Below, in pieces: positions 1,665-34,328 of a DNA stretch of 34,328 nucleotides. The notes under the pieces are model-generated. The model did no database searches and was not told the DNA's origin. It worked only from the letters and a program-made list of their open reading frames with translations. Position 1 is the first letter of the stretch; each line of letters opens with the position of its first letter. Origin of the DNA: a virus. Location of the stretch: positions 1 through 34,328 of IMG/VR virus record IMGVR_UViG_3300046474_000385. The stretch is one strand, 5' to 3'. The translations under genes and the position numbers were made by a program.

Positions 1665-1695
1665 CTATCAGTCCATTGCTGGATAACAGACTACC

Positions 1696-2055: not shown

Positions 2056-2080
2056 AATCCTTAGAAATGCTGCGGTCCAC

Positions 2081-2582: not shown

Positions 2583-2607
2583 CATCCCGACAAGGCAAGC
2601 GTGGCCG

Positions 2608-2859: not shown

Positions 2860-2867
2860 GGGGAGCC

Positions 2868-3164
2868 ATGCACGTACTGGTCACGCCTATGCGCCTACGT
2901 GGTGTCGCGCTAGATCCGAAGGAGCGGCGCCGCTACCCGGCGATCCGGGGCAACGTAATGGTGAACTCTAATGTCTGTCACGAATTAGGCCGTGCAACCA
3001 ACGTCGCCCGCGTTGAGGTCGGAATGCCCCTTGATTCTGATCCACTGCCCCCCTTGCTCGATGCCACCTTAGCTGGAATGGCTGTGACTGGATTTGTTCT
3101 GAGCGGAATCGAGTACATTGATGGTTGTGCGTATGCTCAGTCCTGGTGGTGCCGACAAGAATGA
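2868..3164 (+). CDS. Small protein in the SOS operon, unknown function
   Basis: 98 aa, not recognised. ATG 2868 is preceded by AGGGGGAGCC, a strong Shine-Dalgarno that overlaps the end of the upstream gene and supports both the start and co-expression. The N-terminus is basic (PMRLRGVALDPKERRRYPAIRGN). The rest is mixed and ends in SWWCRQE. The next gene begins 71 nt later with a sharp fall in GC, so the operon probably ends here. Confidence 0.65.
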   Translation: MHVLVTPMRLRGVALDPKERRRYPAIRGNVMVNSNVCHELGRATNVARVEVGMPLDSDPLPPLLDATLAGMAVTGFVLSGIEYIDGCAYAQSWWCRQE

Positions 3165-3235
3165 AAGAATGTTAGTGCAACTCTTAGGACTTTGAGTCAA
3201 TCTCACCAGAGCTTATCTAACGAAGGGATGATGTT

Positions 3236-4723: not shown

Positions 4724-4750
4724 ACACAACCACTAGAAGCCAAAAGACTT

Positions 4751-8858: not shown

Positions 8859-9427
8859 GGCTGCACGCCCTCCCAGCTCACTGCCTCGAGGCCGGCCAGA
8901 TCACCGGCCGCCAGCGCCTGATCCAGCTGCTGTTTCAGTTCGTTGGCCTTCTGCAGCAACTGCAACTTGAACACGGTGAAGTCGTCACTGACCTGGCGTA
9001 GCTGCGCCCGGGTATGAACGCGAAAAGCTTTGGAACCCTGTTCGTCGCTGCACGGATACGCACTGTCGACGTCCAACAACACAACACCGGTCAGATTGAG
9101 CTGATCCTCCAGCTGGCTGCTGTAAACGTATCGAGCGCCCAAGGCAGCCGAGTCAAACCCCGAGGTGATTTCAAGTTCGCACGCCGTATTGATCGCGGCG
9201 AACAGCGCGGTATGACGCTCTACCAGGTGCGCGCCGGCATCGAGCTGCGGCGGGTCAATCAAGATAGGCAAACCGTCAAGATCATGGCCGCGCACTTTCT
9301 GCGGAGCAGGATTGGCGATCACTTGCAAATAGCGCTCGTCGCTAATGGGCTTCGCATCAGCGGGCATCGTGGTGTGAATAGACGACAGGTACGTGGTGCC
9401 GGTGCTTGCACTGTAAAAACGTTGCAT
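8855..9427 (-). CDS. Tail fibre assembly protein (gpG-like)
   Basis: 190 aa from ATG 9427; the ORF continues upstream but runs into the fibre gene. The N-terminus MQRFYSASTGTTYLS...MPADAKPISDERY is the usual fibre-assembly chaperone opening (short beta strand, then PADA..I.D..Y). The C-terminal half is a helical region typical of DUF4376-like proteins (LLQKANELKQQLDQALAAGD). It should help fold and trimerise the fibre encoded immediately upstream, 11 bp away. The pairing of a fibre with its own chaperone is the rule in P2-like phages and the pair is often swapped together. Confidence 0.7.
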   Translation of the reverse strand: MQRFYSASTGTTYLSSIHTTMPADAKPISDERYLQVIANPAPQKVRGHDLDGLPILIDPPQLDAGAHLVERHTALFAAINTACELEITSGFDSAALGARYVYSSQLEDQLNLTGVVLLDVDSAYPCSDEQGSKAFRVHTRAQLRQVSDDFTVFKLQLLQKANELKQQLDQALAAGDLAGLEAVSWEGVQP

Positions 9428-11444: not shown

Positions 11445-12612
11445 TGCTCAGCACCTGCAGGCTCTGAATCCGGGGGATGTTCAGCTCCGAGAGGATGTCG
11501 TCGTTGTCGAAGTGCAGCGACTCGATGCCGGGGAACTGCTGGTGCAACTCTTCACCCAAGCGGCTGAAGGAAAAGCGCGACTGTGGATAAGTCAGCGTCG
11601 GCTGGTAGTCGCCCGTCGTGCTCTCACGAAAGGCTGCACGGATAAACAAGGCCGTTTCGTCCTGCAGGGTTTGACGCTGGGCAGCGGTCAAGGTCGAGCG
11701 CGGCCAGAGCGTCACGCGCAGGTCGTGCTGGGTTTCGGGCATGACCATCACCAGCAGGTCGTCGCCGTGACCATGGTTGCCCTGGTCGCGGATATGGGCG
11801 TTGATTTGCGCCAGGTACGTTGCCGCCGGCACGTCCGCATCGAACAACACGAAGGCATTGGCACTGCCAGGTCCACGCGGGGCGCCGTGTTCGAAATACA
11901 CGCCGTCCGGACGCACGCCCGGGAAGGCGGAAATCATCGCCCGGTACACCGCGTCGGTGTGCCACTGGTTCACTGCCGAGAATTGGTTGCGCACCCGCAG
12001 ACGCAGCTCGTCGTTGGGCTCCCGATCGGCCCCGGGCGTGGTCAACCAGCCGTCCGCGTTGGCGACCTGGGCAATGCCGGGAATCGGTACCGGCAACACG
12101 GCGTAGTAACCAGGCGCCAAGTTGAAACCACTACCGACGTCGACCGCTTCAACCGGTACCAGCGACTGCATCACGCCATCGGTAAAGGTCCCGATCGCTG
12201 TGGTCACGAGTTGGTAAACGTGGCCATTGATCGCGGCCGACTGCACGACCGTGCCCTTTGCGACCTCGAGGGCGCCGCCGGGGGCCACGCGGGTGAACAG
12301 CAGAAAACCTGTGGCCTTGGTTGCGCCCTTGCGTTCAACGTTCACGCCCCAGGCCAGCATGTCGAGCCAGGCATCCACGGCGGTTTTGACGAAGAAGTTC
12401 GGCAGTACGGTGCTGATCAAAAAGTCCAGAATCCACATCACCGGCTTGGTCACCAACGCGGTGACCACCCGCCAGAACGGCGACCAGGTGCTGGTGTTGC
12501 TCAGTTTGCTGCCCTGGGCGATCACTTCGGCTTCCCACGCCTGGCGCAGGCCGGCCTCAGTGGTCGGAATGCCGGCATCGGACAGGGCCTGTTTGAAATC
12601 CACGTCACTCAC
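11437..12612 (-). CDS. Baseplate J family protein
   Basis: 391 aa. It belongs to the gpJ/Mu gp47 family of baseplate wedge proteins: central LLFTRVAPGGALEVAKGTVVQS, GSGFNLAPGYYAVLPVPIPGIAQVANADGW, and REPNDELRLRVRNQFSA are the hallmark segments. About 80 residues longer than P2 gpJ, with an added N-terminal helical region. ATG 12612 overlaps the stop of the W-like gene (ATGA). Confidence 0.88.
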   Translation of the reverse strand: MSDVDFKQALSDAGIPTTEAGLRQAWEAEVIAQGSKLSNTSTWSPFWRVVTALVTKPVMWILDFLISTVLPNFFVKTAVDAWLDMLAWGVNVERKGATKATGFLLFTRVAPGGALEVAKGTVVQSAAINGHVYQLVTTAIGTFTDGVMQSLVPVEAVDVGSGFNLAPGYYAVLPVPIPGIAQVANADGWLTTPGADREPNDELRLRVRNQFSAVNQWHTDAVYRAMISAFPGVRPDGVYFEHGAPRGPGSANAFVLFDADVPAATYLAQINAHIRDQGNHGHGDDLLVMVMPETQHDLRVTLWPRSTLTAAQRQTLQDETALFIRAAFRESTTGDYQPTLTYPQSRFSFSRLGEELHQQFPGIESLHFDNDDILSELNIPRIQSLQVLSND

Positions 12613-12926
12613 AACATCACCTCGATACTGCCGAATTTCAGGGTTGTGGCCGTCACCAGGAACTGCCCAGGCTCAAGCTGGGTAATCAGTGCCGTACCCG
12701 GTACGAGGCGTTCGTCCGCCTCGACCAGCAGCTCCAGTTGCTGAATGCAGTCGCGCTGTTTCAGGCGGTTGCGCTCGGCCACCAACGTCACCAGCAGGCC
12801 GCTATCGCGGATCATGTGAGCGATGTCCTGAGCGATGCTGGCCCGGTCATCGATCAGCTCGGGCTGGCGGGACGGATCGAGCACCAGGTCGTTGTCATGG
12901 ATCAGCAGGTCGATGTATTCGCTCAT
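12609..12926 (-). CDS. DUF2590 family baseplate protein (gpW/gp25-like)
   Basis: 105 aa. MSEYIDLLIHDNDLVLDPSRQP, then RASIAQDIAHMIRDSGLL and RLVPGTALI, match my memory of DUF2590, a small family of Mu/P2/HP1-type phages with a gp25/lysozyme-like wedge fold. It sits directly before gpJ as P2 W does. Start and stop both overlap neighbours as ATGA. Confidence 0.75.
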   Translation of the reverse strand: MSEYIDLLIHDNDLVLDPSRQPELIDDRASIAQDIAHMIRDSGLLVTLVAERNRLKQRDCIQQLELLVEADERLVPGTALITQLEPGQFLVTATTLKFGSIEVML

Positions 12927-19602: not shown

Positions 19603-20060
19603 AGGAGTGCCGCCGTGATGCGGCCACGGCCCTGTAGCGAGCGGACGGCCTGCTGACTGAACTCGAGGAATGTTTCCTTGCGCTCGGGGGCTTCCTTGCC
19701 CAGGTTCTCGGCACTTTCGCGACGGATGATCGAGGCGAATTCCGGCAGTAAGCTGGCCTTGGCGCGGCAATACACGGCGCGCTTGTACGTCTCAGCTTGA
19801 AAGGTGCGCTCTGGCAGGACGGTGGTGTCTGCAGATTCAACGCGTGACACTCCAGCGCCCTGCCAGCGCGCTTTTAACTTGGCGAGGTCACTGTTGACCT
19901 CAGTCATGGCTGTAGCCAGGTTGATGACCAGCATCTCTACCAGGTGCTCCGCCGGCAGGCGGTAACCCTTCTGAAACTCGGTCACGGAGAGGTCCGGCCA
20001 GAAGCCGTCGTTCTCGATCGCTTGTTCCACAAAGGTGGTGGGTTTCCCGGAAAAGCTCAT
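19599..20060 (-). CDS. Head completion/stabilisation protein gpL
   Basis: 153 aa. FVEQAIENDGFWPDLSVTEFQKGYRLPAEHLVEMLVINLATAM is close to the P2 gpL pattern (FWP...F...YRL...V....L..A....N..L), and YKRAVYCRAKASLLPEF continues it. It forms the neck ring on the filled capsid. A 98-nt gap without a gene separates it from the small terminase, the widest gap in the late operon. Confidence 0.85.
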   Translation of the reverse strand: MSFSGKPTTFVEQAIENDGFWPDLSVTEFQKGYRLPAEHLVEMLVINLATAMTEVNSDLAKLKARWQGAGVSRVESADTTVLPERTFQAETYKRAVYCRAKASLLPEFASIIRRESAENLGKEAPERKETFLEFSQQAVRSLQGRGRITAALL

Positions 20061-20158
20061 TGCTGGGCACTCGAATAGGGGCGGGAAAACTGTTTCAGTG
20101 GGTCAGGGCCATAAATGGTTGGCTCACATCCACAGTTTCTCGCCGGGGGGGTAGTCGG

Positions 20159-20875
20159 TTATTCGGCGGCTTGGATAGCCAGTTCTTTTGCGAGCGCCTT
20201 GCGAGCGCCCTCCAGGCGTGTGCCTACGCCAATCGCCTCGTACAACTCAGTGGCGCGTTCAAAGTGGCTGATGGCTTTCGTCCACTCCCGGTCGGCCAGA
20301 GCGCGAATCCCAAGCAACTTGTGGTACTTGGCCGGGATCTGCTCAGTGAGCTGCCATTCGCCGTCGACACGCGGTAGCAAGTCGCTCACATACGGCTCTG
20401 GACTGCGCCCTGCCTTCTGCTCGGCCTCGGCCCACTCGAACACCGCATCAGCCACAAACGTCGGCACGTCGCGCTTGAACCGCTCAGGCATCGGCTGGTT
20501 TTGCGCCATGGCGAAGTTGGCCAAGTCCAGGCCAACTTCGAACTGCACCGTGTCGAACAGCCAGACCAAGACCTGCATCACTACCGAGTTCGGGAAACTC
20601 AATCCGGAATCGCGGTAGCGCTGCACGTAGTCCAAGTACTTGGGCAGCAGCTCGTCACGCTTGAGCTGCTGACGCAGTTCGCGGCTGTTGATCGCGCTGA
20701 CGCGCTCCAGATCCTGGGCCAACGCGTCTTCCATCAGCTTCAGGTGTTTCTTGGCGTTGGCGGGGCTGGACAGCGCGGTGGCGGATGAATACACCACCGC
20801 TTCGGCACCGGCGCGTGCAGCAGCTGCAGGGCCTTCGGCTTGAACGCGGCGCTTGTGCGCCAGTGCCAGGCTCAT
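20159..20875 (-). CDS. Small terminase subunit gpM
   Basis: 238 aa, matching the length of P2 gpM (about 247). It has KRDELLPKYLDYVQRYRDSGLSFPNSVVMQVLVWLFDTVQFEVGLDLANFAM, the family's core, with MPERFKRDVPTFVADAVFEWAE after it. It recognises the cos/pac end and regulates the large terminase. Start overlaps the capsid stop by one base (TGATG). Confidence 0.9.
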   Translation of the reverse strand: MSLALAHKRRVQAEGPAAAARAGAEAVVYSSATALSSPANAKKHLKLMEDALAQDLERVSAINSRELRQQLKRDELLPKYLDYVQRYRDSGLSFPNSVVMQVLVWLFDTVQFEVGLDLANFAMAQNQPMPERFKRDVPTFVADAVFEWAEAEQKAGRSPEPYVSDLLPRVDGEWQLTEQIPAKYHKLLGIRALADREWTKAISHFERATELYEAIGVGTRLEGARKALAKELAIQAAE

Positions 20876-22957: not shown

Positions 22958-25021
22958 ATGCCATACGCCCCCGAACTAAAAGAAGCCGCCAAACGCCTGT
23001 ATCTGCGCCGCTGCAAGCCGCGTGAAATTCAGGCGCAATTGTCCCTGCCCAACATCCGGATCGTTTACTACTGGATCCGCCAGGGCGAGTGGGACGACAT
23101 GCTGTCGGACGAAGAACCGCTGACCGCCGTCGGCCGGCGAATCACCCTCCTCCTGGACAAAACCACGTCGCTGACCAAGGCCGATCTGGACGAGCTCGAC
23201 CGATTGACCACCGTTCGCGAACGGCTGTTGAAGCAATCGGCGAAACCGGCACCGGCGCCGATCGGTGATCCGCCGGCGGACGATCGCCAGCGCCAAGATA
23301 ATCAACGCAGTGAACGTCGGGACAGAGGCGATCGCAGCGACAAGGGCGGAAAAAAACGAGAGAAGAAGGCCAAAAACGAAGTCGGTGACCTGAGGGAAGT
23401 GGACTTTCTCGACAAGTTCATCAGCAAAATGTACGGCTATCAGAAAGAGCTATTCGCCGCCAAACAGAACCCGCTGACAGCGCGGATCCGCAACATCCTG
23501 AAAAGCCGTCAGGTCGGCCTGACTTATTACTTCGCCGGCGAAGCGTTCATGGACGCCGTGCTCACCGGTGACAACCAGATCTTCCTGTCGGCCAGCCGAG
23601 CCCAATCGGAGATTTTCCGTAGCTACATCGTGTCGTTCGCCCAAGAGTGGTTCGGCCTCGAGCTGACCGGCAACCCGATCGTGCTGAGCAAAGACGGCAA
23701 GCCATGGGCCGAGCTGCGCTTTCTCAGCACCAACAGCAGCACTGCCCAGGGGCACCATGGCCACGTCTACGTCGACGAGTACTTCTGGATCCGCGACTTC
23801 GAGAAACTGAACACCGTCGCCAGCGCCATGGCGACCCACAAGAAATGGCGCAAAACCTACTTTTCAACGCCCAGCGCCGTATCGCATCAGGCGTACCCGT
23901 TCTGGACTGGCGAGAAATTCCGCAACAGCAAACGCAAAAACGCCAAAGACCCATGGCCTAGCGAAGCCCAAGCAGCGGCTGGCTCACTTTGTCCGGACGG
24001 GCAATGGCGCAAGGTCATCACCATCCTCGACGCCATTGCCGGCGGCTGCGATCTGTTCGACCTCGAGCAGCTGCAGCTGGAGTACGACGAGGACAAGTTT
24101 CAGCAGCTGTTCATGTGCAAGTTCATCGACAGCACGCAAAGCGCCTTTTCCCTGGTCGACTTGGAGCGCTGCTACTCCGACCTGTCGTTGTGGACCGACT
24201 ACGACCCTGACGATCCGCGCCCATTCGGCAACAGCCCCGTGTGGATAGGCTACGACCCGAGCCGCACCCGCGACGATGCAAGCTGCGTGGTCATTGCCCC
24301 GCCGCTCGAGGACGGCGGCAAGTTCCGGATCCTGGAGAAACACAGCTGGCGTGGGCAGTCGTTCAAGTACCAGGCCGAGCAGGTCAAGAAACTCACAGAG
24401 CGCTTCAACGTGCAGCACATCGGCATCGACACCACCGGCATCGGTTACGGCGTGTTCGACCTGGTGCGCGATTTTTACCCGCGTGCGACCTCGATCCACT
24501 ACAGCCTCGAAACCAAAAACACCTTGGTGCTCAAAGCGCAGGACACGATTCAGGGCAGCAGGATCGAGTGGGACGCCGGCTGGAATGACATCGCGCAGGC
24601 CTTCCTGACGATCAAGCGTGGCACCACCGGCGGTGGCCAAGTCACGTACAGCGCGTCGCGCACTGACGCCTCCGGACATGCCGATATAGCCTGGGCCATC
24701 ATGCACGCCTTAGCCCACGAACCTCTCAACACCAACAAACAGCGGCGTAGCCGCTACACACTCAGCGGACCAAGCACCCATGGGCAAACCAGCAATAAAC
24801 CAGCCGCAAAAACCAGTACCAGGTCCGATGCGGGCGTTTTCATTCGGTGCACCGGAACAGGTTTTGACCGAGAACATCGGGCATTACCTGGGCGTGTTCG
24901 CCACCCACGACGGCCAGACCTACACGCCGCCGGTGTCACGCCAAGGCCTGGCCAAACTGCTACGCGCCAACGCTCACCACGGCGCCATTCCCGGGTTCAA
25001 GCGCAACCTGCTGCTACGTGA
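22958..25021 (+). CDS. Large terminase subunit gpP, with long overlap into portal
   Basis: 687 aa. An N-terminal HTH (ELKEAAKRLYLRRCKPREIQ, YYWIRQGEWDDM) precedes a basic linker (about residues 100-145). The ATPase has a deviant Walker A region (NILKSRQVGLTYYFAGEAF) and Walker B HVYVDEYF near residue 272. The nuclease domain has GYDPSRTRDDASCVV near residue 431. P2 gpP is 590 aa. Here recognisable protein ends near residue 600 (RTDASGHADIAWAIMHALAHEPL), and about 80 more Arg/Pro/Thr-rich residues are read out of phase across the portal start (overlap 242 bp). This tail looks like noise after a lost stop or small indel. Confidence 0.9.
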   Translation: MPYAPELKEAAKRLYLRRCKPREIQAQLSLPNIRIVYYWIRQGEWDDMLSDEEPLTAVGRRITLLLDKTTSLTKADLDELDRLTTVRERLLKQSAKPAPAPIGDPPADDRQRQDNQRSERRDRGDRSDKGGKKREKKAKNEVGDLREVDFLDKFISKMYGYQKELFAAKQNPLTARIRNILKSRQVGLTYYFAGEAFMDAVLTGDNQIFLSASRAQSEIFRSYIVSFAQEWFGLELTGNPIVLSKDGKPWAELRFLSTNSSTAQGHHGHVYVDEYFWIRDFEKLNTVASAMATHKKWRKTYFSTPSAVSHQAYPFWTGEKFRNSKRKNAKDPWPSEAQAAAGSLCPDGQWRKVITILDAIAGGCDLFDLEQLQLEYDEDKFQQLFMCKFIDSTQSAFSLVDLERCYSDLSLWTDYDPDDPRPFGNSPVWIGYDPSRTRDDASCVVIAPPLEDGGKFRILEKHSWRGQSFKYQAEQVKKLTERFNVQHIGIDTTGIGYGVFDLVRDFYPRATSIHYSLETKNTLVLKAQDTIQGSRIEWDAGWNDIAQAFLTIKRGTTGGGQVTYSASRTDASGHADIAWAIMHALAHEPLNTNKQRRSRYTLSGPSTHGQTSNKPAAKTSTRSDAGVFIRCTGTGFDREHRALPGRVRHPRRPDLHAAGVTPRPGQTATRQRSPRRHSRVQAQPAAT

Positions 25022-25802
25022 GTTTATTGCCTCAGATGGCTGTTCGGTCCAGACCATGAGCAGAGCCGGGTTGGATTTCATGGTTTTTGGCGAGGCTTAC
25101 TTTCTGCGCAATCGCAATGCGTTCGGCCAAGTGCTGGAAATGGAACACCTGCCAACTATCAACATGCGGGTCAGGGTTGGTGGCGGGTTTGTGATGCTGC
25201 TGCCGGACGGCAAGAAAGTGGAGTTCGAAGAGGATGAAGTCGAGCACGTCATGAACTACGACGTGGAACAGAACATTTACGGCGTGCCCGACTACCTGGG
25301 CGGCATGCAGGCGCTGTTGCTCAATGAGGCCGCTACCCTATTCCGCCGCCGCTACTACAGCAACGGCGCGCACGCGGGTTACATCTTCTACACCAACGAT
25401 CCGAACCTGAGCGAGAAGGACGAAGAGTCCCTGCGCGATCAAATCAGCGCGAGCAAGGGTGTGGGCAACTTCCGATCGATGTTCGTGAACATCCCCGGCG
25501 GCGCCGAGAAGGCCATCCAGATCATCCCGGTGGGGGATTTTCAGGCCAAGGACGAGCTGGAGAAGGTCAAGAACATTACCCGAAACGACGTGATCGCCGC
25601 GTGGCGCATGAACCCCGCGTTGGCCGGCATCATCCCTGAAAACAGCGCTGGCTTTGGCGACATCGAAAAGATCGATCGCGTGTACACCAGTAACGAGATT
25701 CGGCCGATCTGCCAGCTGTTCAACCAGGTCAATGACAGCCTGCGGGAAGACAGGAGAATTAGCTGGAGGACTCCAGAGAAAGAAGCAAAAACCACTGACT
25801 AA
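24780..25802 (+). CDS. Portal protein gpQ
   Basis: 340 aa, the length of P2 gpQ (344). MRAFSFGAPEQVLTENIGHYLGVF, then YTPPVSRQGLAKLLRANAHHG, YYSNGAHAGYIFYTNDPNLS and GIIPENSAGFGDIEKIDRVY match P2/PBSX portal. It forms the dodecameric DNA gate bound by terminase. The ATG at 24780 must be real, because the homology begins about 15 residues after it, inside the terminase overlap. The ORF is in the +1 phase relative to terminase. Confidence 0.95.
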   Translation: MGKPAINQPQKPVPGPMRAFSFGAPEQVLTENIGHYLGVFATHDGQTYTPPVSRQGLAKLLRANAHHGAIPGFKRNLLLREFIASDGCSVQTMSRAGLDFMVFGEAYFLRNRNAFGQVLEMEHLPTINMRVRVGGGFVMLLPDGKKVEFEEDEVEHVMNYDVEQNIYGVPDYLGGMQALLLNEAATLFRRRYYSNGAHAGYIFYTNDPNLSEKDEESLRDQISASKGVGNFRSMFVNIPGGAEKAIQIIPVGDFQAKDELEKVKNITRNDVIAAWRMNPALAGIIPENSAGFGDIEKIDRVYTSNEIRPICQLFNQVNDSLREDRRISWRTPEKEAKTTD

Positions 25803-25815
25803 ATACACAGTAGTA

Positions 25816-25828
25816 GGTGATTATCACC
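25816..25828 (+). promoter_or_regulatory. 13-bp palindrome before the Ogr-like gene
   Basis: GGTGAT-T-ATCACC, perfect, 46 nt before the start at 25875 and upstream of a CATAAT -10-like hexamer (25839-25844). It is a possible operator for the activator gene. Confidence 0.35.
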
Positions 25829-25874
25829 ATAGGTAACGGCATAATGATGGCTCTAAAACCCTGGGGAGGGAAAC

Positions 25875-26135
25875 ATGCGAATTTACTGCACTGCCTGCGA
25901 CTACAAAGGACGTATCAGTTCACGGGAGGAAATTACTCGTGGCTATGTGAAGCTCTACTGCCAGTGCCTGGACGCGAAGTGCGGGCACACTTGGGTATCC
26001 GAACTTACATTCAAACATTCCTTGAGACTTCCAGCCCAACATCTCGACACAATCCTTCTAGAGAGAATCAGAAGTTTGCCGGCGGATCAGCAGCAAGAAC
26101 TGTTCCTGCAGGTCGGTTCCTCGCAATCAAGCTGA
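25875..26135 (+). CDS. ogr: Ogr/Delta-family zinc-finger late transcription activator
   Basis: 86 aa. MRIYCTACDYKGRISSREEITRGYVKLYCQCLDAKCGHTWVSELTF has the C-X2-C...C-X-C-X4-CGH pattern of Ogr and Delta, which bind upstream of late promoters and recruit RNA polymerase through its alpha subunit. Length fits (P2 Ogr is 72 aa) with a longer C-terminus. GGGAGGGAAAC just before ATG is a very strong ribosome site. It follows the portal by 72 bp and is the natural switch for the gpO, gpP and later tail genes of this phage. Confidence 0.93.
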   Translation: MRIYCTACDYKGRISSREEITRGYVKLYCQCLDAKCGHTWVSELTFKHSLRLPAQHLDTILLERIRSLPADQQQELFLQVGSSQSS

Positions 26136-26224
26136 CCCAAGTACCCTGTTCGCAACCTCCCCGGCGCGACCCAGCCCCCCCGTTCTCGTGGCCCCACTGC
26201 ACATCTCTCAACACCCACACCGGA

Positions 26225-26243
26225 ATGCCTGCAGCGCAGGCAT
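26225..26243. repeat. Perfect hairpin ATGCCTGC / GCAGGCAT
   Basis: 8-bp arms with an AGC loop. Part of the candidate origin region; it could also be a terminator for the Ogr-like or RepA transcript, but no T-run follows on either side. Confidence 0.7.
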
Positions 26244-26468
26244 ATAAGCCGCCTACACGATCTCACCTGACACCCACAACTCTGGCGCGGCGGAACCCGA
26301 GCAGCGGCCGGTGGTCTGACAATTTCGCCCCAAAAATCTCCGCCGCGCCGCCCAATCGTGCCCGCGACCGCCGCTCGCAAATTTCAATTGCACCTCGGCG
26401 CGCCCGATTACTGCTTTTGACGCCTGATGGATCCACGGCACTGGGGTGCCGGGTATCCAGCACCGGGT

Positions 26469-26508
26469 GCAGGGCACTGCCCTGCCGCTGTGCGGGCGCG
26501 TAGCCCGC
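26469..26508. repeat. Two adjacent GC-rich inverted repeats
   Basis: GCAGGGCA-C-TGCCCTGC (26469-26485) is a perfect 17-bp palindrome. GCGGGC-N5-GCCCGC (26492-26508) follows 6 bp later. Two stable foldbacks this close suggest an origin or strong pausing/termination element. Confidence 0.7.
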
Positions 26509-26606
26509 GATCCTCATTAAAAGCTGAGCGCAGCGAACTGAGCCCTTGGGCGAAGGCATCATCTTGTACCCAACACACCGCCCCTGTGGACACCTCGGAA
26601 GCCTCT

Positions 26607-26643
26607 TTTTATACCCACCGGGGGTGCTGAAGGGGGTATAAAA
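26607..26643. repeat. Inverted repeat TTTTATACCC / GGGTATAAAA
   Basis: Perfect 10-bp arms at 26607-26616 and 26634-26643, around a 17-nt GC-rich spacer. Each arm contains a TATA-rich DnaA-like core. It could be an initiator-binding or strand-opening element. Confidence 0.6.
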
Positions 26644-26840
26644 TTCCATTTAATTCAAAGGCTTTCTGGTTGCCCCGTTTGCGCGCCGGCGGCGCGGCTA
26701 AATCGCGCTGTAAAGGAGACGTACACACGGCCGATTGCCGCCATGGCGATGCACGGCGGAAGGTTGAGTGCTGAGATAGGGTGTTTTCTTGACTGCCAGA
26801 CGTAGCCTGGCCTCGCAGGGGTTGCGATCGTTTCGGAGGG

Positions 26841-27746
26841 CTAGGTGTCTTTCTTGACCTGGATGCTGCGCATCAGGCGCGCCAGAGATTCGTCCACGCC
26901 ACCAGGCCTACTGTCGGGTGTCTGGGAAGCCCTAACACGACCGGGTGAATTGACCTGCTCTGGCATCTCCCCTTGGCTGTGAGCCACTTTGCGTGCCTCA
27001 CTACGTTCCCAGTTGGTACGTGACGTCTCGCGCCGTAAGGCTTCCAGAGACGCCTTCTCCTGACGCGCTAGGCGAAGCCCGCTGATGTCACGCAGCTCCT
27101 TTTCACGCTTCTTCAGTGCGGCCTTTTTCGCCCGATGCCAGAGGTACCGTACACCGAGGTCAGCAAAGAACTTTTCAGTGAATCGCACCAGGACACGAGT
27201 TCGCACCAGATTAAGTCCAGCTTCGTCCTTTTCATCCAAGCGAATTTTCTCCACGCGCCGGTAAACATAGTCGGCCAGTTCCATGCTGTGCAGCAGGCGA
27301 TTGAAGGACGCAGCAGAGACCCCGCTATCCTCTGCGACACCGCACTGGGTGTTGAGGAAAAACTGCCCCCGCTCGACGTCGAGCCACCCCATAACGCCTG
27401 TCGCCAGATCTAGGCGTACAAGCATCTGCTCGGCAACCTTAGCCAGCGCATCGAATTTCTCAGAGCGGGTACGGCGGCCACCATGAATGGTGTCCAGATC
27501 ACGTAGATACATACCGCGCAGGTCGCCGATTTGGCTCAGGCGCTTGAACGCCATCCGCAGAAGGGGGTTTTTGAGCTGCTGGCCAGTCAACCGGCGAGGA
27601 GCGGAATACCGGGGTGCGCGAGCAGGCGCTCGCAGAGCCGCGTGGGGATCTTTCTTGTCGCGATGCACAGCAGTAGGTCGGCCCTTTCTGGGGCCGGCCT
27701 TGCGGTCGCTCGTTCGCGATTTGATGTCCTTATCCGGCTGAGTCAC
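26841..27746 (-). CDS. RepA-like (IncFII-type) plasmid replication initiator
   Basis: 301 aa from GTG 27746, which overlaps the upstream stop as GTGA. A basic N-terminal 60 residues precede LTGQQLKNPLLRMAFKRLSQ, GGRRTRSEKFDALAKVAEQM, LNTQCGVAEDSGVSAASFNRLL (winged-helix-like), VRTRVLVRFTEKFFADLGVRYLWHRAKKAALKKREKELRDI. This resembles RepA initiators of IncFII-related Pseudomonas plasmids (RepA_IncFII family). It would bind an origin and load host helicase, not nick DNA like P2 gpA. No copA-like antisense RNA region is possible upstream, because the gene is fused to the early operon by overlap. The family call is from memory of the pattern; a generic phage initiator is the alternative. Confidence 0.6.
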   Translation of the reverse strand: MTQPDKDIKSRTSDRKAGPRKGRPTAVHRDKKDPHAALRAPARAPRYSAPRRLTGQQLKNPLLRMAFKRLSQIGDLRGMYLRDLDTIHGGRRTRSEKFDALAKVAEQMLVRLDLATGVMGWLDVERGQFFLNTQCGVAEDSGVSAASFNRLLHSMELADYVYRRVEKIRLDEKDEAGLNLVRTRVLVRFTEKFFADLGVRYLWHRAKKAALKKREKELRDISGLRLARQEKASLEALRRETSRTNWERSEARKVAHSQGEMPEQVNSPGRVRASQTPDSRPGGVDESLARLMRSIQVKKDT

Positions 27747-28375
27747 AGGCGGGTATTCACCTGTTGCGGGATAGGTTTCTGGTGCTGCTCGAGCAGCACG
27801 TCTTCGGCACGCGAGCGAAGCTCACAGCACCGCGCTTCGACTGACCGGAGCCTATCGACAAAGCTAGGTAGCTTGTCGATGTCTTGGAGGTCGATATGAC
27901 CGTCTGCAAGGATCTCGCTGCCCAAAGCTACTGTATCGCCCAGCCTGGCCACGAGCAGGCCAAACGCACACAGCGGATTACCGTCACCTTCCTGCTCGCG
28001 TGCGCCAGTCAGACCGTGACGACTGGCAAGCTCATTGATGCAATCGTCTTTGAATTCGCCGTCAAGAGCTTCTACCCAAGCCTCTTCAAGCCAGCACGGC
28101 AAATCTACCTCACCGTTAAGCCAGCGGCCAACGCGACGCAGCCAGGCCCCTGATGCTTTCAGAAACACCGGCGCGTCGTTGCCCTTGGCAAGCTCATCGA
28201 AATCGGGCACGTCCTTACTAGCAGCCTTGTCTGGAACGATGCGATGCAGGTTACTGCTCAGTAACTGGGCAAAGTCGTCCTGGCTGAAACCGGTGCGCGC
28301 GATCATCTCAACGGCATGAGCAATAAGTACTTGATCACGGGAAATGGACTGCTGTCCGTGTGTGGACGTGGTCAA
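27743..28375 (-). CDS. Early-operon protein, unknown function
   Basis: 210 aa. The reading frame starts at TTG 28375, which overlaps the upstream stop as TTGA and has only a weak Shine-Dalgarno. A later ATG (AHAVEMIARTG, in frame) is a second choice. It is acidic and helical, with FSQDDFAQLL and GRWLNGEVDLPCWLEEAWVEAL patterns but no known domain. It lies between the Cro-like gene and RepA in a coupled operon, so a role in replication or the switch is likely, but is not shown by the sequence. Confidence 0.6.
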   Translation of the reverse strand: MTTSTHGQQSISRDQVLIAHAVEMIARTGFSQDDFAQLLSSNLHRIVPDKAASKDVPDFDELAKGNDAPVFLKASGAWLRRVGRWLNGEVDLPCWLEEAWVEALDGEFKDDCINELASRHGLTGAREQEGDGNPLCAFGLLVARLGDTVALGSEILADGHIDLQDIDKLPSFVDRLRSVEARCCELRSRAEDVLLEQHQKPIPQQVNTRL

Positions 28376-28632
28376 GGCTGCTTACCGCATTTAGGCTGCC
28401 CCAACGCTTTTTCGTGGCCGGACTTAAAGCCATCGGGCGACGCCGAGTGTTCCTGGCAAGGAAACGGGCGGGTCTCCCGGGCTGCGCAAGTACCGTCGTC
28501 ACCGATCGTTACGATGATGTTTCGCTGAGCTCTTAGAGCTTTCGCTATCGACGCCGGTTTCACACCGAGCGCACGCGCTACCGGCGCCTGACCCATCCGT
28601 TGCACTAAATCACTAAGGGACATCTCTTCCAT
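28372..28632 (-). CDS. Cro-like repressor
   Basis: 86 aa from ATG 28632, with AGGTG six nt upstream; a GTG at 28641 is an unlikely alternative. The first 40 residues (MSLSDLVQRMGQAPVARALGVKPASIAKALRAQR) form a Cro/YdaS-like HTH, then NIIVTIGDDGTCAARETRPFP, the dimerisation strand typical of Cro. A 25-residue Lys/Gly-rich C-terminus is extra. It faces the S24 repressor gene across a 107-bp operator region and is the first gene of the early operon Cro-like, 210 aa, RepA. Confidence 0.85.
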   Translation of the reverse strand: MEEMSLSDLVQRMGQAPVARALGVKPASIAKALRAQRNIIVTIGDDGTCAARETRPFPCQEHSASPDGFKSGHEKALGQPKCGKQP

Positions 28633-28662
28633 GTCATACACCTAAGATTGATGAATGACCGG

Positions 28663-28739: not shown

Positions 28740-29459
28740 ATGACTAAGAAAAAGCCCATCGCCCCTGCCCTATTTGCGGAATGCCAAGCAGCCCACGAGC
28801 TCTATCTTTCTAAGAAGAACGCTCTCAAGCTGAATCAACGGAAGATTGCCGATGCCGCAGGCATAACACCGGTTTCGGTGAACCATTATTTGAAGGGTAT
28901 AAATGCGCTCAATGCCCGCTTTGCTTCGGTGCTGGCGAAGCTGCTAAATGAGCCGGTCGAGAGCTTCAGTCCACGCCTTGCTGCCGAAATCGAGGGGATG
29001 GCGGCTACAAGTGGTCATTCCAACATTTCTCCAATGCTGCAACCTCACCGAGAGGCCCGGGAATATCCATTGATCTCATGGGTTGCCGCCGGCGAGCAGA
29101 TTGAATCTTCCGTCTGCTATCCGACCGGAATTGCAGACGATTGGCTGTCGTCTACGGAGAACGCAGGGCCACGTGGGTATTGGCTCAAGGTCAAGGGAAA
29201 GTCGATGACATCGGACACCCCGCCTAGCTTCCCGGAAGGCACTCCGATATTGATTCGCCCTGAAGGCTTTGACCTCATCAGCGGCAAGTTCTACATCGCC
29301 CGCCACACCGTGAGCGGCGAAACCACCTTCAAGCAATACAATCTAGATGCTGGGGTAGGCTACTTGGTGCCACTCAATCCAGAGTACAAGGCGGTAGCTC
29401 TGGACGGTACTTGGGAAATTATCGGCCGTGCGATCGATGCGAAAATCACCGGCATGTAA
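28740..29459 (+). CDS. CI-type XRE/S24 cleavable phage repressor
   Basis: 239 aa. N-terminal HTH (KLNQRKIADAAGITPVSVNHYLKGINAL, about residues 30-57). The C-terminal LexA/CI autoprotease domain has a cleavage site Ala117-Gly118 in WVAAGEQ, nucleophile Ser155 in VKGKSMTSD and Lys198 in GETTFKQY. It should hold lysogeny by blocking the early promoter and be inactivated by RecA in SOS. No Shine-Dalgarno precedes the ATG. The gene is divergent from the Cro-like gene and converges on the 97-aa gene 53 bp after its end. Confidence 0.95.
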   Translation: MTKKKPIAPALFAECQAAHELYLSKKNALKLNQRKIADAAGITPVSVNHYLKGINALNARFASVLAKLLNEPVESFSPRLAAEIEGMAATSGHSNISPMLQPHREAREYPLISWVAAGEQIESSVCYPTGIADDWLSSTENAGPRGYWLKVKGKSMTSDTPPSFPEGTPILIRPEGFDLISGKFYIARHTVSGETTFKQYNLDAGVGYLVPLNPEYKAVALDGTWEIIGRAIDAKITGM

Positions 29460-29512
29460 CGTCGTTGATAACCCACCGGCGTGCCTTAAAGCATTCCGAT
29501 CAGCTTCGCAGC

Positions 29513-29806
29513 TCATCCTCTAGCCTTGCGTGGACATAACTTGCCTGCATCGCCTTGAGCTGATCCAGGCGGGGCACTGTGCACCACGATATGACCTTGG
29601 CCAATTTTGAAGTTCTTCATTACAGCGATGCACACGTTCCACGCCTCGCGTGCAACAGCATCGCCGGTTTCGACCACATTGCCCTGGTCATCGATAATCG
29701 CTAGACGTGCAGGACGCCCGTCGGCTGTGCTGAATTGATAACCGCTGCTGACATTGGCACTGATACGGCCAAGCTCCAGCGTGCCTGTCTTGGGGATCCC
29801 GATCAT
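29513..29806 (-). CDS. Small early protein, unknown function
   Basis: 97 aa, not recognised. A compact beta-rich first part (MIGIPKTGTLELGRISANVSSGYQF, ARLAIIDDQGNVVETGDAVAREAWNVCIAVMKNF) ends in a 20-residue basic, disordered-looking tail. ATG 29806 overlaps the upstream stop as ATGA, so it is translated with the 168-aa gene and under the same repressed promoter. Expression is expected on induction. Confidence 0.6.
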   Translation of the reverse strand: MIGIPKTGTLELGRISANVSSGYQFSTADGRPARLAIIDDQGNVVETGDAVAREAWNVCIAVMKNFKIGQGHIVVHSAPPGSAQGDAGKLCPRKARG

Positions 29807-30309
29807 GGTCTTACCCCTACTTCAATACCTACAGAGCACTTGTTCACGATCAAAGCGATCGTACTGGCGTGGAGATCACGGCGACTTTGGGCTGTGTGTA
29901 TCGCGCTCCAGTTTTCTTTTGCAATTGCGGCATCGAGTTCCGCGTTTGCACTCCGATACCCCTCAATACTTTGACTGAACAGTCGTTTCGTATTTGGCTC
30001 CAGGATGGAAATGGTCAACTGCCCATCGGCGTCTGGAGTGATTCTCGGATCGTTGCAAAGAGCAAGCTCCTCAAGAAGGCGCGCAATTCGTTCGGCAACG
30101 TGATCAGTTTTCGGGATGGTCAAACTGTTTACAGTGCTACCCAGTCTGACCTGTACAGATACATCTTCTAAGCCCTGCTCAATGGCAACAATGGCCGTCG
30201 CGCAGCAGCGTCCGTCTTCTGCAAAAAAATGGTGCGAAAAGGTGCCGTTCTGAGTGACCTGGTCTGATAACTGAGCGCGCGCATGCGGCGAAAGGCAAAG
30301 GGCGTACAT
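29803..30309 (-). CDS. Early protein, unknown function
   Basis: 168 aa from ATG 30309, which has GGAGG 9 nt upstream; the upstream continuation of the frame has no ribosome site. Begins MYALCLSPHARAQLSDQVTQ. It contains FAEDGRCCATAIVAIEQGLEDVSVQVRLGS and a helical C-terminus. No domain is recognised. First gene of a two-gene operon driven by the repressor-controlled promoter at 30369-30397. It is between the switch and the integrase, where early anti-host or immunity genes often lie. Confidence 0.65.
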   Translation of the reverse strand: MYALCLSPHARAQLSDQVTQNGTFSHHFFAEDGRCCATAIVAIEQGLEDVSVQVRLGSTVNSLTIPKTDHVAERIARLLEELALCNDPRITPDADGQLTISILEPNTKRLFSQSIEGYRSANAELDAAIAKENWSAIHTAQSRRDLHASTIALIVNKCSVGIEVGVRP

Positions 30310-30368
30310 CGTGTAAACCTCCAAAGCGATCAGGGCACCGCAACGCAATACCCTGAACTGATGGAGAC

Positions 30369-30397
30369 AAATTAGCCTCAGGCTAATTTTATGTCAA
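30369..30397 (-). promoter_or_regulatory. Second early promoter (PL-like) with repressor palindrome
   Basis: On the minus strand TTGACA (complement of 30392-30397), 17 nt, TAATTT (complement of 30369-30374): near-consensus. A perfect palindrome (AAATTAGCCT, C, then its complement; 30369-30389) fills spacer and -10. GGCTAAT-Y-TTATGT is shared with the switch region (28700-28713) and a half-site copy GTTAGCCGC lies at 30425-30433, so the same repressor should silence it. Confidence 0.8.
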
Positions 30398-30440
30398 ACA
30401 CCTGCGGCATATTTTTTGTCTTTTGTTAGCCGCTGGATAA

Positions 30441-30695
30441 TCAGAAGGGGTGATGATTGGTCCAGCTCAATTGCGCAATCCCGTCGCCTAGGTGCTTCAA
30501 GCGCACGCCTTCCTCGTTATTCAATTCCTCTAGAAGTCGATCCCAGTCAGCGGAGCGCTCGCCGGATAATCGCCGTATTAACGTTCGCCGCAGGACTTGG
30601 GCGGAGGCACTGTTGACCTGTCGGTAAATACGGCATGCAAGTTGGTCGAATGGGGTCGACGGCTGCATTGGAAAAACGCGGTTTTGCTGAAGCAC
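30441..30695 (-). CDS. SOS-controlled DUF1654 family protein
   Basis: 84 aa from GTG 30695 (AGGA 7 nt upstream; an in-frame ATG at 30668 has no ribosome site). STPFDQLACRIYRQVNSA, then AQVLRRTLIRRL, SADWDRLLEEL and LGDGIAQLSWT follow the pattern of DUF1654, a family mainly found in Pseudomonas and its phages, function unknown. A LexA box lies 19 nt upstream. It is on the integrase strand, 67 bp after the integrase stop, so it may also be reached by read-through. Confidence 0.82.
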   Translation of the reverse strand: MLQQNRVFPMQPSTPFDQLACRIYRQVNSASAQVLRRTLIRRLSGERSADWDRLLEELNNEEGVRLKHLGDGIAQLSWTNHHPF

Positions 30696-30713
30696 AAAAG
30701 CATCCTGCTACTG

Positions 30714-30729
30714 CTGTATATCCAGACAG
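30714..30729 (-). promoter_or_regulatory. LexA (SOS) box
   Basis: CTGT-N8-ACAG, perfect. On the minus strand it overlaps a TATACT -10-like hexamer, and 20 of 22 bases (TATACTGT to ATACAGCA) equal the box region at 2563-2584. Confidence 0.87.
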
Positions 30730-30762
30730 TATATAGTAAATGTAGCTTTGCTAATATTTGGC

Positions 30763-32391
30763 CTAATCCCAGTCCTCACTCGCCACCCAATCGCCTGTTT
30801 TCCGATGGATCCGAAGCAGACGGTGCTGTCCCGTACGCGAGAGAAGCTGCACATCAATGAACTGACCTTCGCGGTCGGTTGCGTCCACACCCCGCATGAA
30901 AATGACAATTCGACTGAATGTGTCCATGACCAACTGCCTGACGCTTTCTCTTGCCCCGTAATCTCCCGCTTCCACTTGGACAGACAGATCCGCCCATCGC
31001 TCTGCCTGGGCTGGTTGAGCAGCCCCTGCGGATATTGAGCTCACCTCATACTCCAGTGTTGAAACGCTTTGTTCAGCATCTCTAAGTTGTGATTCCAACT
31101 CCCTTGCCTTACGGACAAACGCCAGAGGGGCGGCGCCACTCTCATCTGCTAAAAGCGCATCAGTTACCTTGCCTAACTGACCTGTGATCTTCGCAACAGC
31201 CGCCCTTGCATCCACAAGCTGACGATGGACAGCCTGGCCATCATCGCTTGGTTGCATAAGTCGCTGGAGGTTGAGCTGATCCGTGCAGAACTTGAGTAAC
31301 GCTTGCTCGATTGGGACAACGCTGCAGCTTCCACCGGCGGAGCACCCGCCGTTTTTACTGTAGGAAGTGCAGTGCAACCTGCGATTGCCGTCTGCAATAC
31401 TTCCATCCACACGCCTACGCTTCATTATGTTTTGCGCAACTAGCGCTGTACCGCAGTAGCCGCAGTAGGCCAATCCGACCCCGGTGATGATGCCTGGTAT
31501 CTCCCCCGCTCCTCGACGACGCAACCGTTGGGCAGCAAGGTGCTGCAGATCATTCCATTCTGCATCGGACAGTACACGCGGGTAGTACTCCTCCAACTCG
31601 TAATCCTCGCCCTCCAGACTCAACCGTTTGACACCCCGCAGCGCAGGCAACTTGATCGTCCGGTAGATCTGTAATCCGGAGATTCCTCCCTCAGTCAGTT
31701 GAAATCCCTCTTCATGCATGATGTTTGCAGCACGGCCGGCACCGAGTCCCAAACGATAAAGCTCAAGCGCCCGCTTTACTGCTGCGACACGCTCTGGGAT
31801 CAACTCCCATCCCCCATTGGTCAATCGCACCCACTGTGGGTCTTTACCGTTGCGGATCACCCCACGAAACGAACCGGATATCCAACCTTCACATTGACGA
31901 CGGATTGCGGCTTTGACTCGCTTGCTCTTCGTGTCGGACTCTTCATGCGCCCTGATCATCACCAGGAGCGAATACACCAGGTCCATAGGCTGAGCTTTCA
32001 AACCAGCCCTGTTGTACTCGCGGCCGTCGCTTGCGGTAACTACCGTGATACCCGCATTGATAATCTGAGCAAGCTGAGCCTGGGCTTGGATAGGTTCAGC
32101 TCGACTAAGACGATCCAGTCCCTCAACGATTAGAACAGAGCCATCGTTGATACGACCGTCCTCCACTGCCCGCAAAAATACCCCTAAAGCGCCTTGCTTC
32201 ACATGGCGTTGGTGATATGCGGAAAGGCCTTCGTCTCTCAGAGAAAGAGACTCATCTAAAATAAAACCGTTTGATTTAGCCCAGCGCTGAGCATATTGAA
32301 GTTGACGGTCAGCACTATTACCCAACGCTTGTTTTGGATCAGAAAATCGAAGATAGCTGTAGACCTTACGCCCCCCTAGTTGCGCATTCAT
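30763..32391 (-). CDS. Large serine integrase
   Basis: 542 aa. N-terminal resolvase domain with YLRFS at residues 13-17 (Arg15, nucleophile Ser17) and DGLSAYHQ, VEGLDRLSRA, REYNRAGL. The recombinase domain (residues about 180-280) is followed by a zinc ribbon (CGYCGTALV, LHCTSYSKNGGCSAGGSC) and a coiled coil (VRKARELESQLRDAEQSVSTLEYEV). It should recombine attP with the rimO attB across the TG core without host help; excision needs a directionality factor I could not identify. ATG 32391 overlaps the stop of the membrane-protein gene (TAATG), so it is translated with it. Most P2-type phages use tyrosine integrases. Confidence 0.95.
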   Translation of the reverse strand: MNAQLGGRKVYSYLRFSDPKQALGNSADRQLQYAQRWAKSNGFILDESLSLRDEGLSAYHQRHVKQGALGVFLRAVEDGRINDGSVLIVEGLDRLSRAEPIQAQAQLAQIINAGITVVTASDGREYNRAGLKAQPMDLVYSLLVMIRAHEESDTKSKRVKAAIRRQCEGWISGSFRGVIRNGKDPQWVRLTNGGWELIPERVAAVKRALELYRLGLGAGRAANIMHEEGFQLTEGGISGLQIYRTIKLPALRGVKRLSLEGEDYELEEYYPRVLSDAEWNDLQHLAAQRLRRRGAGEIPGIITGVGLAYCGYCGTALVAQNIMKRRRVDGSIADGNRRLHCTSYSKNGGCSAGGSCSVVPIEQALLKFCTDQLNLQRLMQPSDDGQAVHRQLVDARAAVAKITGQLGKVTDALLADESGAAPLAFVRKARELESQLRDAEQSVSTLEYEVSSISAGAAQPAQAERWADLSVQVEAGDYGARESVRQLVMDTFSRIVIFMRGVDATDREGQFIDVQLLSRTGQHRLLRIHRKTGDWVASEDWD

Positions 32392-33545
32392 TATGTCGAT
32401 GCCGCCGGCTTATCATCTTTTGCAGAAACTTTTAATTTTTCTACGAGACTTGAAACGGATTCAAACATAGCGATCATGTGATTTAGATCTCCTGATTTCT
32501 GGGGAGTTGGCTCAAGCCACTTAACATCCTCTTCAAGGACCTTCAACATCTGCACCCTCATACCTACGAGATGCTCACCAGAGTTAGAAAACTCTTTAAT
32601 CGCCAAATAAGACAATAGATATCGATTGAAAACCGATTTCACACGCACTAGATTAAATGAAGAATCAGTAAAACTTTTGTACTGACGCAAAAACCAAGCC
32701 GCTAGGAATTCAACAACCAAAAAAGTTAGAGAGCAGGAGACCATCCCCCAAACGGCAAACTTTCCAACCTCATATAGAGAAGTAGTAACTTGCCAAACCA
32801 CTATGGAGCAAATATAAAAAAATATACCTCGCCACAGATACGTCGTCCCTTTATCTAAAAGCAATGACGCTTTATTTTCAGCGAGATTGATATGAAGATC
32901 CAACGAACGGACGAGCGAATTCATGTGGCGCTCAAAGCCAGTCACCTCATGGCTTTGGCTTGAAGGTTTCTCGTCAACTTCGGAAAGAAATTTCGGGGAC
33001 ACAGCATCTTCTATAGAGACGGCATTGTAATAGCGTTGCGGTTCTTTCTTTCTTTTCAATATTGCCCTGAGAACATCCACACCCTCAGCTTTCTTCAACT
33101 CGTCCCCTTCAACCTGACGACGTAGTATTTTTTCGTCCAGATCTACAAAACTCTCTTTTCGTGTACCAGATAAAAGTGCCAAAAGAAACACAAGTGCGAG
33201 TAGTGAAAGGCTGCCAACAGCCATTGCGGCGACAAGTACACTTCCTTCGAAGAATCTTACTATGCTTGGAAGCGCGGCGATAATCAGAGCACTCCCCATC
33301 ATAAATCCAGCGAGCATGGTTAACGCGAGTCTGAGTTTATCAACCCAACCCACGAAACTTCGCACTGGAGGTTTAAAAATTTCCTCGTTTAGCTGTTCAA
33401 ATTTTTTATTGAATCTTTCGCGTTCTTTTTCCAGAGCCTCGCGACTCCATTCGTCGTGATCTTTCACCTCGACGAACTCGTCCTCTTCTGACTTCTCTGT
33501 CTCCACCGCGTCACTAATAGGACGCTTTAAGTTACGATCTTCCAT
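32391..33545 (-). CDS. Four-TM membrane protein of unknown function (right-end cargo)
   Basis: 384 aa from ATG 33545 (GGGG 8 nt upstream; a TTG two codons earlier is the alternative). An acidic/charged N-terminus (about 60 residues) is followed by two hydrophobic segments (around 70-95 and 105-125). A charged loop (about 130-225) then leads to two more (LWRGIFFYICSIVVW; FAVWGMVSCSLTFLVVEFLAAWF), and a helical C-terminus. The NLAENKASLLLDKG motif before TM3 is reminiscent of membrane effectors such as PycTM, but this is weak. AT-rich. Stop overlaps the integrase start. Function unknown. Confidence 0.75.
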   Translation of the reverse strand: MEDRNLKRPISDAVETEKSEEDEFVEVKDHDEWSREALEKERERFNKKFEQLNEEIFKPPVRSFVGWVDKLRLALTMLAGFMMGSALIIAALPSIVRFFEGSVLVAAMAVGSLSLLALVFLLALLSGTRKESFVDLDEKILRRQVEGDELKKAEGVDVLRAILKRKKEPQRYYNAVSIEDAVSPKFLSEVDEKPSSQSHEVTGFERHMNSLVRSLDLHINLAENKASLLLDKGTTYLWRGIFFYICSIVVWQVTTSLYEVGKFAVWGMVSCSLTFLVVEFLAAWFLRQYKSFTDSSFNLVRVKSVFNRYLLSYLAIKEFSNSGEHLVGMRVQMLKVLEEDVKWLEPTPQKSGDLNHMIAMFESVSSLVEKLKVSAKDDKPAAST

Positions 33546-33560
33546 GTCCAAACCCCAAAA

Positions 33561-33662: not shown

Positions 33663-34328
33663 ATGAGTAATAACCCACGTGTAGGGTTTGTATCGCTAGG
33701 GTGCCCGAAAGCACTGGTCGACTCCGAGCGCATCCTGACCCAGCTGCGCATGGAAGGCTATGACGTGGTGTCCACCTATCAGGACGCCGACGTGGTCGTG
33801 GTCAACACCTGCGGTTTCATCGATTCGGCCAAGGCTGAGTCTTTGGAAGTGATCGGCGAAGCGATCAAGGAAAACGGCAAGGTCATCGTCACCGGTTGCA
33901 TGGGCGTGGAAGAAGGCAACATCCGCAACGTCCACCCGAGCGTGCTGGCCGTGACCGGTCCGCAGCAGTACGAGCAAGTGGTCAACGCCGTGCACGAAGT
34001 CGTGCCGCCGCGTAAGGATCACAACCCGCTGATCGACCTGGTGCCGCCGCAAGGCATCAAGCTGACCCCGCGTCACTACGCGTACCTGAAAATTTCCGAA
34101 GGCTGCAACCACAGCTGCTCGTTCTGCATCATCCCGTCGATGCGCGGCAAACTTGTCAGCCGTCCGGTCGGTGATGTGCTCGACGAAGCTCAGCGTCTGG
34201 TCAAATCCGGCGTTAAAGAGTTGCTGGTTATTTCGCAAGACACCAGCGCTTACGGCGTTGACGTGAAATACCGCACCGGTTTCTGGAACGGCGCGCCGGT
34301 GAAAACCCGCATGACCGAACTCTGCGAA
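33663..34328 (+). CDS. rimO: Ribosomal protein S12 methylthiotransferase RimO (phage-supplied start), 3' end outside window
   Basis: 222 codons to the window edge. RimO adds a methylthio group to Asp89 of S12 through radical SAM chemistry. UPF0004 domain: [22 protein letters not shown] with the cluster Cys in the TGC of the att core, VVNTCGF and [10 protein letters not shown]; radical-SAM CNHSCSFC follows (about residues 146-153). Codons up to and including the TG core ([13 protein letters not shown] and part of Cys) come from the phage side of attR; the host version has MSTTPAPANPK before VGF, five residues longer. The protein is otherwise uninterrupted, so RimO should remain functional in the lysogen. 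Confidence 0.95.
33690..33715 (+). other. attR (phage/host junction)
   Basis: Phage half GTATC-N3-AGGG, TG core 33702-33703, then host CCCGAAAGCACT, in the codons for VSLGCPKAL of RimO. The paired site is attL at 644-669. Confidence 0.8.

Follow-up and report, generated by a model that had tools for sequence, protein, structure and literature searches.

How a phage with P2-type virion genes copies its DNA when it carries no P2 replication gene is the question raised by this locus. P2 is the textbook rolling-circle phage. A sequence-only reading of the 34,328-nt stretch of viral DNA analyzed here (the window) had proposed that the gpA nickase is missing, that an IncFII-type RepA initiator stands in its place, and that hairpin-rich DNA directly downstream holds the origin. 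Our results agree with a plasmid-type initiator in place of gpA and with a cis-acting origin directly downstream, but they assign the initiator to another family, the RepJ proteins of Pseudomonas plasmids.

A P2-type prophage without the gpA nickase

The window is an integrated, temperate Pseudomonas prophage of the P2/HP1 type (Table 1). Read from its right end, it carries the host gene, a serine integrase gene, the CI gene on the plus strand, and then the Cro, CII-like, and RepJ genes, all on the minus strand. Beyond the RepJ gene come 705 nt, followed by Ogr (plus), portal and terminase (plus), and then capsid, HP1-type tail, lysis, and baseplate genes (minus). The arrangement at the center of the earlier proposal, in which the last gene of the early operon (26841-27746) is followed directly by a 705-nt gene-free region (26136-26840), is confirmed. 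The capsid, terminase, portal, scaffold, GPL, and Ogr proteins of a Peduoviridae virion are all represented (PF05125 at 6.6e-115, PF05944, PF03237, phrog_73, PF05926, and phrog_603). By terminase, the nearest named phages are UFJF_PfPro (77%) and phi3 and its relatives (70-71%).

Several other parts of the window deserve mention. A 386-aa gene without a family match fills the interval between the serine integrase and the host gene (32391-33551, minus strand), and some sister phages have relatives at 32-54% identity in the corresponding position. Beyond the tail module lies a set of cargo-like genes (801-5758, plus strand) that encode a weakly 2TM_IV-like protein, small proteins conserved in phages, an SEC-C protein of 495 aa, and a DUF4238 protein, possibly a defence or moron island. 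The tRNA-Arg that ARAGORN places at 10004-10092, inside an opposite-strand tail-fibre gene (9439-10911), is probably a false positive.

Table 1. Features of the prophage, listed from the right end of the window.
Feature	Position	Strand	Evidence or remark
Host gene fragment, MiaB/RimO-type	33663..34328	+	UPF0004 and radical SAM domains
Large serine integrase	30763..32391	-	PF00239, PF07508, PF13408
CI-like repressor, HTH and S24 peptidase	28740..29459	+	PF00717 (1.8e-19), PF01381
Cro	28372..28641	-	PF09048 (5.3e-24)
CII-like transcriptional activator	27743..28375	-	phrog_4834 (8.8e-33); 4-nt overlap with repJ
repJ-type initiator, 301 aa	26841..27746	-	RepJ homology; last gene of early operon
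Region without recognisable gene, 705 nt	26136-26840		between repJ and Ogr
Stem-like block GCGAGGCCAGGCTACGTCTGG	26796..26825	-	directly past repJ stop; 86-89% conserved in phages
Conserved core of proposed origin, TTTGAATTAAATGGAATTTTATACCCCCTTCAG..CCCC..GGGTATAAAAAGAGGCTTCCGAGG	26591..26664	-	177-250 nt past repJ stop
Perfect 10+10 inverted repeat, TTTTATACCC / GGGTATAAAA	26607..26643	-	in core element; partly kept in other phages and plasmids
Hairpin GCGGGC-TACGC-GCCCGC, 6-bp stem	26492..26508	-	kept in 21/21 phages
Hairpin GCAGGGCAGTGCCCTGC, perfect 8+8	26469..26485	-	all pairs kept in 21/21 phages
Perfect 11+11 inverted repeat, GGCGCGGCGGA	26284..26349	.	weak cos candidate, by inference only; motif absent from most sister phages
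Hairpin ATGCCTGC-GCT-GCAGGCAT, perfect 8+8	26225..26243	-	pairs kept in 19-21/21 phages
Ogr/Delta-type late activator	25875..26135	+	phrog_603 (4.7e-18); converges on origin region
P2-type portal gpQ	24780..25802	+	PF04860; phrog_68 (8e-123)
P2-type large terminase gpP	22958..25021	+	PF03237, PF17289; 71-77% to phi3/UFJF_PfPro

The family profile of gpA (PF05840) matches nothing in a six-frame translation of the window and nothing in 13 sister records, and the positive control, phage SMHB1, is matched at 5.7e-112. The absence of the nickase noted earlier is therefore borne out. Replication domains were not found in the other scanned genes of the window, and PADLOC and family scans of its remaining unknown genes returned no replication gene. 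The discovery of a nickase or another initiator elsewhere in the phage would have counted against a swapped replication module, and none was found in the genes scanned.

The premise that P2 relatives replicate with gpA holds for SMHB1 but is too general. Phages phi3 and UFJF_PfPro also have no gpA match, and so this protein is not universal in the Peduoviridae group; each carries instead a protein of about 900 aa with a TOPRIM domain in its early region. Given RepJ here, TOPRIM in phi3 and UFJF_PfPro, and gpA in SMHB1, replication genes appear to be exchanged within this virion type. The TOPRIM genes of these closest named phages (25291-28002 in UFJF_PfPro, L144, and 25310-28000 in phi3, L145) are likely replication genes and would represent a third replication solution among P2-type virions.

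The gene order serine integrase-CI-Cro-CII-RepJ-origin-Ogr-portal-terminase recurs in more than 40 prophages or contigs, none of which is a named phage, and it is kept both in IMG/VR contigs and in the chromosomes of Pseudomonas species. Every phage-type locus of sufficient length has the downstream element after RepJ, with CI, Cro, and CII on one side and Ogr, portal, and terminase on the other, although a Cro match is missing from one phage-type locus (L046). None of these six flanking genes was seen in any plasmid-type RepJ locus.

The last early gene encodes a RepJ homologue

The 301-aa protein is 55% identical to the RepJ protein of plasmid pPsv48C over 247 aa (E 2e-63). A plasmid search with this protein yielded 33 records, 31 of them from Pseudomonas and mostly at 50-60% identity. 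Because the matches include the repJ gene of pPsv48C and that of pA506, also named repJ in the published work (PMC5304414), RepJ is the right name for the phage protein. Judged by its sequence, the gene is a RepJ-family initiator homologue of the Pseudomonas plasmid type. It starts with a GTG codon that overlaps the cII stop by 4 nt, and an alignment of the RepJ family (A2) has more than 60 invariant columns. The protein by itself has no good family match in Pfam, PHROG, or NCBIfam and no match among 50,697 phage records, and no named phage was found to carry the gene.

What is known of RepJ function comes from plasmids. In pPsv48C, RepJ is an essential initiator: replication is lost when repJ carries a premature stop, and a minimal replicon of 1,375 nt (29386-30760) is sufficient (PMC5304414). 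A chromosomal, non-phage homologue without the REx-C control module replicated solely once REx-C drove its expression (PMC5304414), as expected if expression alone were missing. The idea that the chromosomal PSA3335_1080, described in the same paper (PMC5304414), is this phage gene finds no support: it is 72.7% identical to plasmid RepJ, compared with 49-62% for the phage RepJs. Two further loci (L138 and L139) are of a similar non-phage kind.

Fold analyses point to a winged helix. MarR-type winged-helix Pfam profiles match 13 of the 23 RepJ family members examined (best 9e-7), and an AF2 model of the 301-aa protein has confident helices and a wing in the middle of the protein, with a mean pLDDT of 65 (moderate confidence). 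Sequence searches of the PDB and Foldseek fold searches returned just generic MarR-type winged helices, nothing below 0.001, and no recognised replication domain was found in RepJ.

A conserved element downstream of repJ in phages and plasmids

The core element of about 74 nt downstream of repJ is shared with plasmid RepJ loci at 77-89% nucleotide identity over 38-84 nt; between the phage and plasmid repJ genes themselves, identity is 53-58%, and 30-40% at third codon positions. Local alignments of the core element between phage and plasmids score 56-77, compared with a shuffle maximum of 24-27. Its motif has a sole match in the window and none in 100 shuffles. Every complete phage locus examined has the element about 163-194 nt past the stop codon, and so do nearly all plasmid-type loci that are intact; the exceptions are L138, with a degenerate copy, and L140, with a larger spacing of 257 nt. 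RepJ homologues at about 30% identity also have a related block some 180 nt downstream. The AT-rich stretch proposed from the letters exists, as about 25 nt inside the core, the most conserved element, but the GC content of the full 705-nt region exceeds that of the window.

In pPsv48C, the DNA past the repJ stop, within 242 nt, is essential for replication (PMC5304414). We confirmed the frame of this gene, with an ATG at 29700 that has the published RBS and with 30760 falling 242 nt past the stop. The pPsv48C copy of the shared element starts at about 30709 and overlaps the stretch required for replication. The conserved downstream cis region expected of a RepJ family member is present in the phage, and the block concerned overlaps the 242 nt of the minimal replicon. 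We infer that 26591-26664 is the core of a phage origin that would be active in the phage and include a RepJ binding site.

The remainder of the 705-nt region is also structured. The perfect hairpins described earlier hold up as repeats of 10+10, 8+8, 8+8, and 11+11, and three hairpins persist in nearly every one of 21 phages. The hairpin at 26492-26508 shows one compensatory change (C-G to T-A). A stem similar to the 26225-26243 hairpin is also found 3' of plasmid repJ, and plasmids have a block related to 26796-26825 at the matching place. No iterons were found in the 705-nt region, its overall folding is ordinary for DNA of this composition (z = -1.4, not significant), and GC skew, which also tracks gene direction, makes no clear turn at the proposed origin.

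Distribution of the RepJ loci

IMG/VR holds 30 loci with the gene and more that are found through the DNA motif, and GTDB holds 23 RepJ loci, of which L121-L131 are phage-type. A RepJ homologue occurs in 17 of 399 Pseudomonas genomes; in a 369-genome sample of the class, RepJ was present solely in the genome of the query itself. In a tree without a settled root, a single branch (support 92/100) separates the phage RepJs as a group from the rest, and so one transfer between plasmid and phage is enough to explain them. By blastn, most plasmid repJ genes have REx-C upstream, and no phage locus has it. We found no report of RepJ in phages in the open-access literature, and the word phage does not occur in the text of PMC5304414.

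Among the other loci, L139/L183 of P. viridiflava comprise two RepJ genes with REx-C and the origin element, 3 kb apart and near a TraG/TraD-like and a umuC gene. A Pseudomonas-type RepJ on a contig of a cyanobacterial MAG (Kaiparowitsia, L134) is probably contamination.

A proposed replication module and its alternatives

The segment is very probably the replication module of a P2/HP1-type phage, homologous to the REx-R half of RepJ plasmids (repJ plus downstream origin) and placed under lysogeny control. This reading brings together the homology, the cis element and its spacing, the absence of gpA and REx-C, and the conserved cassette. With induction, the early promoter governed by CI, Cro, and CII would fire and yield RepJ as its last, translationally coupled product. 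RepJ might then act on 26591-26664, about 180 nt past its own stop codon, and open the DNA or load a helicase, after which host enzymes would replicate the circularised phage DNA, probably in the theta mode. Such copying would produce closed monomeric circles, which are what a P2-type terminase packages, and so a nickase would not be needed. In the lysogen, CI would silence repJ, with lysogeny control replacing the antisense copy-number control that REx-C provides in plasmids.

Could the initiator nevertheless be a true IncFII-type RepA with a CIS/oriR? The similar size, the winged helix, the downstream origin, and a weak collinear stretch found by hhalign (P-value 0.038) all speak for it. The hhalign probability, however, is 1.4%, a BLASTP comparison gives only a 20-residue match, and the RepA_IncFII profile (PF02387), against which the sequence-only reading had suggested searching 26841-27746, is silent in the window even at E 10 and also in 23 family members. 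The DnaA-box-like sites reported earlier reduce to a single one-mismatch site within the 705 nt, where the density in the window predicts about 0.6. The analogy to CIS and oriR likewise finds no support; the conserved element is a different one that is common to RepJ plasmids. Given also the strong match to RepJ, the IncFII reading is extremely improbable and already refuted at the level of sequence. A further alternative is that the RepJ homologue regulates transcription of the early or late operon and that the element serves as its operator or in late control, with replication left to the host or to an unrecognised gene. The similarity of RepJ to winged-helix proteins is of the MarR-like kind only and would also fit a transcription factor, repJ adjoins Cro and CII, and Bardaji et al. 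suggest that some chromosomal homologues may serve a non-replication role (PMC5304414). Nonetheless, the same gene and element make up the replication half of functional plasmids, no other candidate initiator was found in the phage, and its closest relatives have a TOPRIM primase-like gene in the early region instead. We regard a purely regulatory role as quite unlikely.

The 705 nt probably also hold the cos site and late-control signals, and some of the conserved blocks therefore need not belong to an origin. The cos site of P2-like phages, which we take to lie beyond gene Q, would fall within the 26136-26840 interval here, and several blocks of the region are phage-specific. We nevertheless consider it unlikely that the conserved blocks are mainly a P2-type packaging site rather than an origin, for the block best conserved across elements is common to plasmids, which do not package DNA. 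The cos site may well be located in the Ogr-proximal half, beside the origin. A candidate based on the P2-like motif GGCGnGGCGG was rejected, as this motif occurs in the window but not in most sister phages.

The replication module proposed above also raises the question of whether the phage might persist extrachromosomally through RepJ, as the sequence-only reading had envisaged. A plasmid-type initiator and origin would permit this, and a distant RepJ relative is carried by pPAC1.3b, a circular 42.8-kb element with head, tail, CI-like, and ParA genes. For the phage in the window, though, the evidence does not favor a phage-plasmid state. Its sister copies reside in chromosomal contigs, the longest of several megabases; the integrase and a host gene are adjacent, REx-C copy control is absent, and no partition gene was recognised. 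Among plasmid records, none matched this terminase at >=60%, nor did any match a phage-type RepJ along most of the protein. We view this lifestyle as very unlikely here.

Taken together, however, the members of the RepJ family do include a likely phage-plasmid, given the distant RepJ of pPAC1.3b. Two P. aeruginosa plasmids, L186 (pPAC1.3b, NZ_CP097559.1, gene at 19827-20660) and L187 (CP124676.1, circular, 48.4 kb, gene at 11806-12660), each carry a RepJ-family gene at about 33% identity and are likely phage-plasmids. The former also has a terminase gene; the latter has phage tail genes and mercury-resistance transposons. No relative of their RepJ genes was found in the named phage collection. 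Two further homologues at about 30% identity occur in Pseudomonas genomes G718 (L180, ~7840-8736) and G723 (L181, ~8267-9253); they are about 50% identical to that of pPAC1.3b, adjoin contractile-tail genes, and are followed some 180 nt downstream by a conserved block of their own.

Implications and relation to known systems

A lineage with P2 virion genes appears to have swapped its rolling-circle mechanism for a plasmid replicon. It seems likely that the replication half of RepJ plasmids is a portable module that a P2-type lineage uses instead of gpA, with a fixed origin, no nickase, and lysogeny rather than antisense control, and that initiators of the RepJ family occur in plasmids, in integrated phages, and in a phage-like plasmid. 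For this poorly understood family the phages are a second natural setting, and they allow its origin to be studied by comparison, through an initiator and one element of about 74 nt common to phages and plasmids. Phage repJ could also account for some of the chromosomal repJ homologues without a control module, and the findings suggest exchange of control and replication modules between plasmids and phages. The reading predicts the position of the origin, independence from a nickase, and possible interaction with resident RepJ plasmids.

The IncFII replicons R1 and R100 resemble the phage module in outline, with an initiator gene followed by an origin, but phage RepJ lacks sequence membership in their RepA family, a tap leader, and an above-chance DnaA box. 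Far closer are the RepJ plasmids pPsv48C and pA506 (PMC5304414), with initiators 49-62% identical, the element some 180-190 nt past the stop, downstream stem-loops, and the REx-R arrangement in common. The phage differs from them in having neither the REx-C control module nor a repI leader, and its repJ gene has a longer N-terminus and belongs to a CI/Cro/CII early operon in an integrated prophage. Plasmid pPAC1.3b shares a RepJ-family gene at about 33% identity and a related block about 180 nt downstream, but it represents a different phage type with head and contractile-tail genes, carries ParA, and is listed as a plasmid. With the P2/HP1-type phages phi3, UFJF_PfPro, and SMHB1, the prophage has its capsid, terminase, portal, Ogr, and HP1-type tail proteins in common. 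The replication genes set these phages apart: SMHB1 has the gpA nickase that the RepJ phage group lacks, phi3 and UFJF_PfPro pair the TOPRIM protein with a tyrosine-type integrase, and the RepJ phage group pairs RepJ with a serine integrase.
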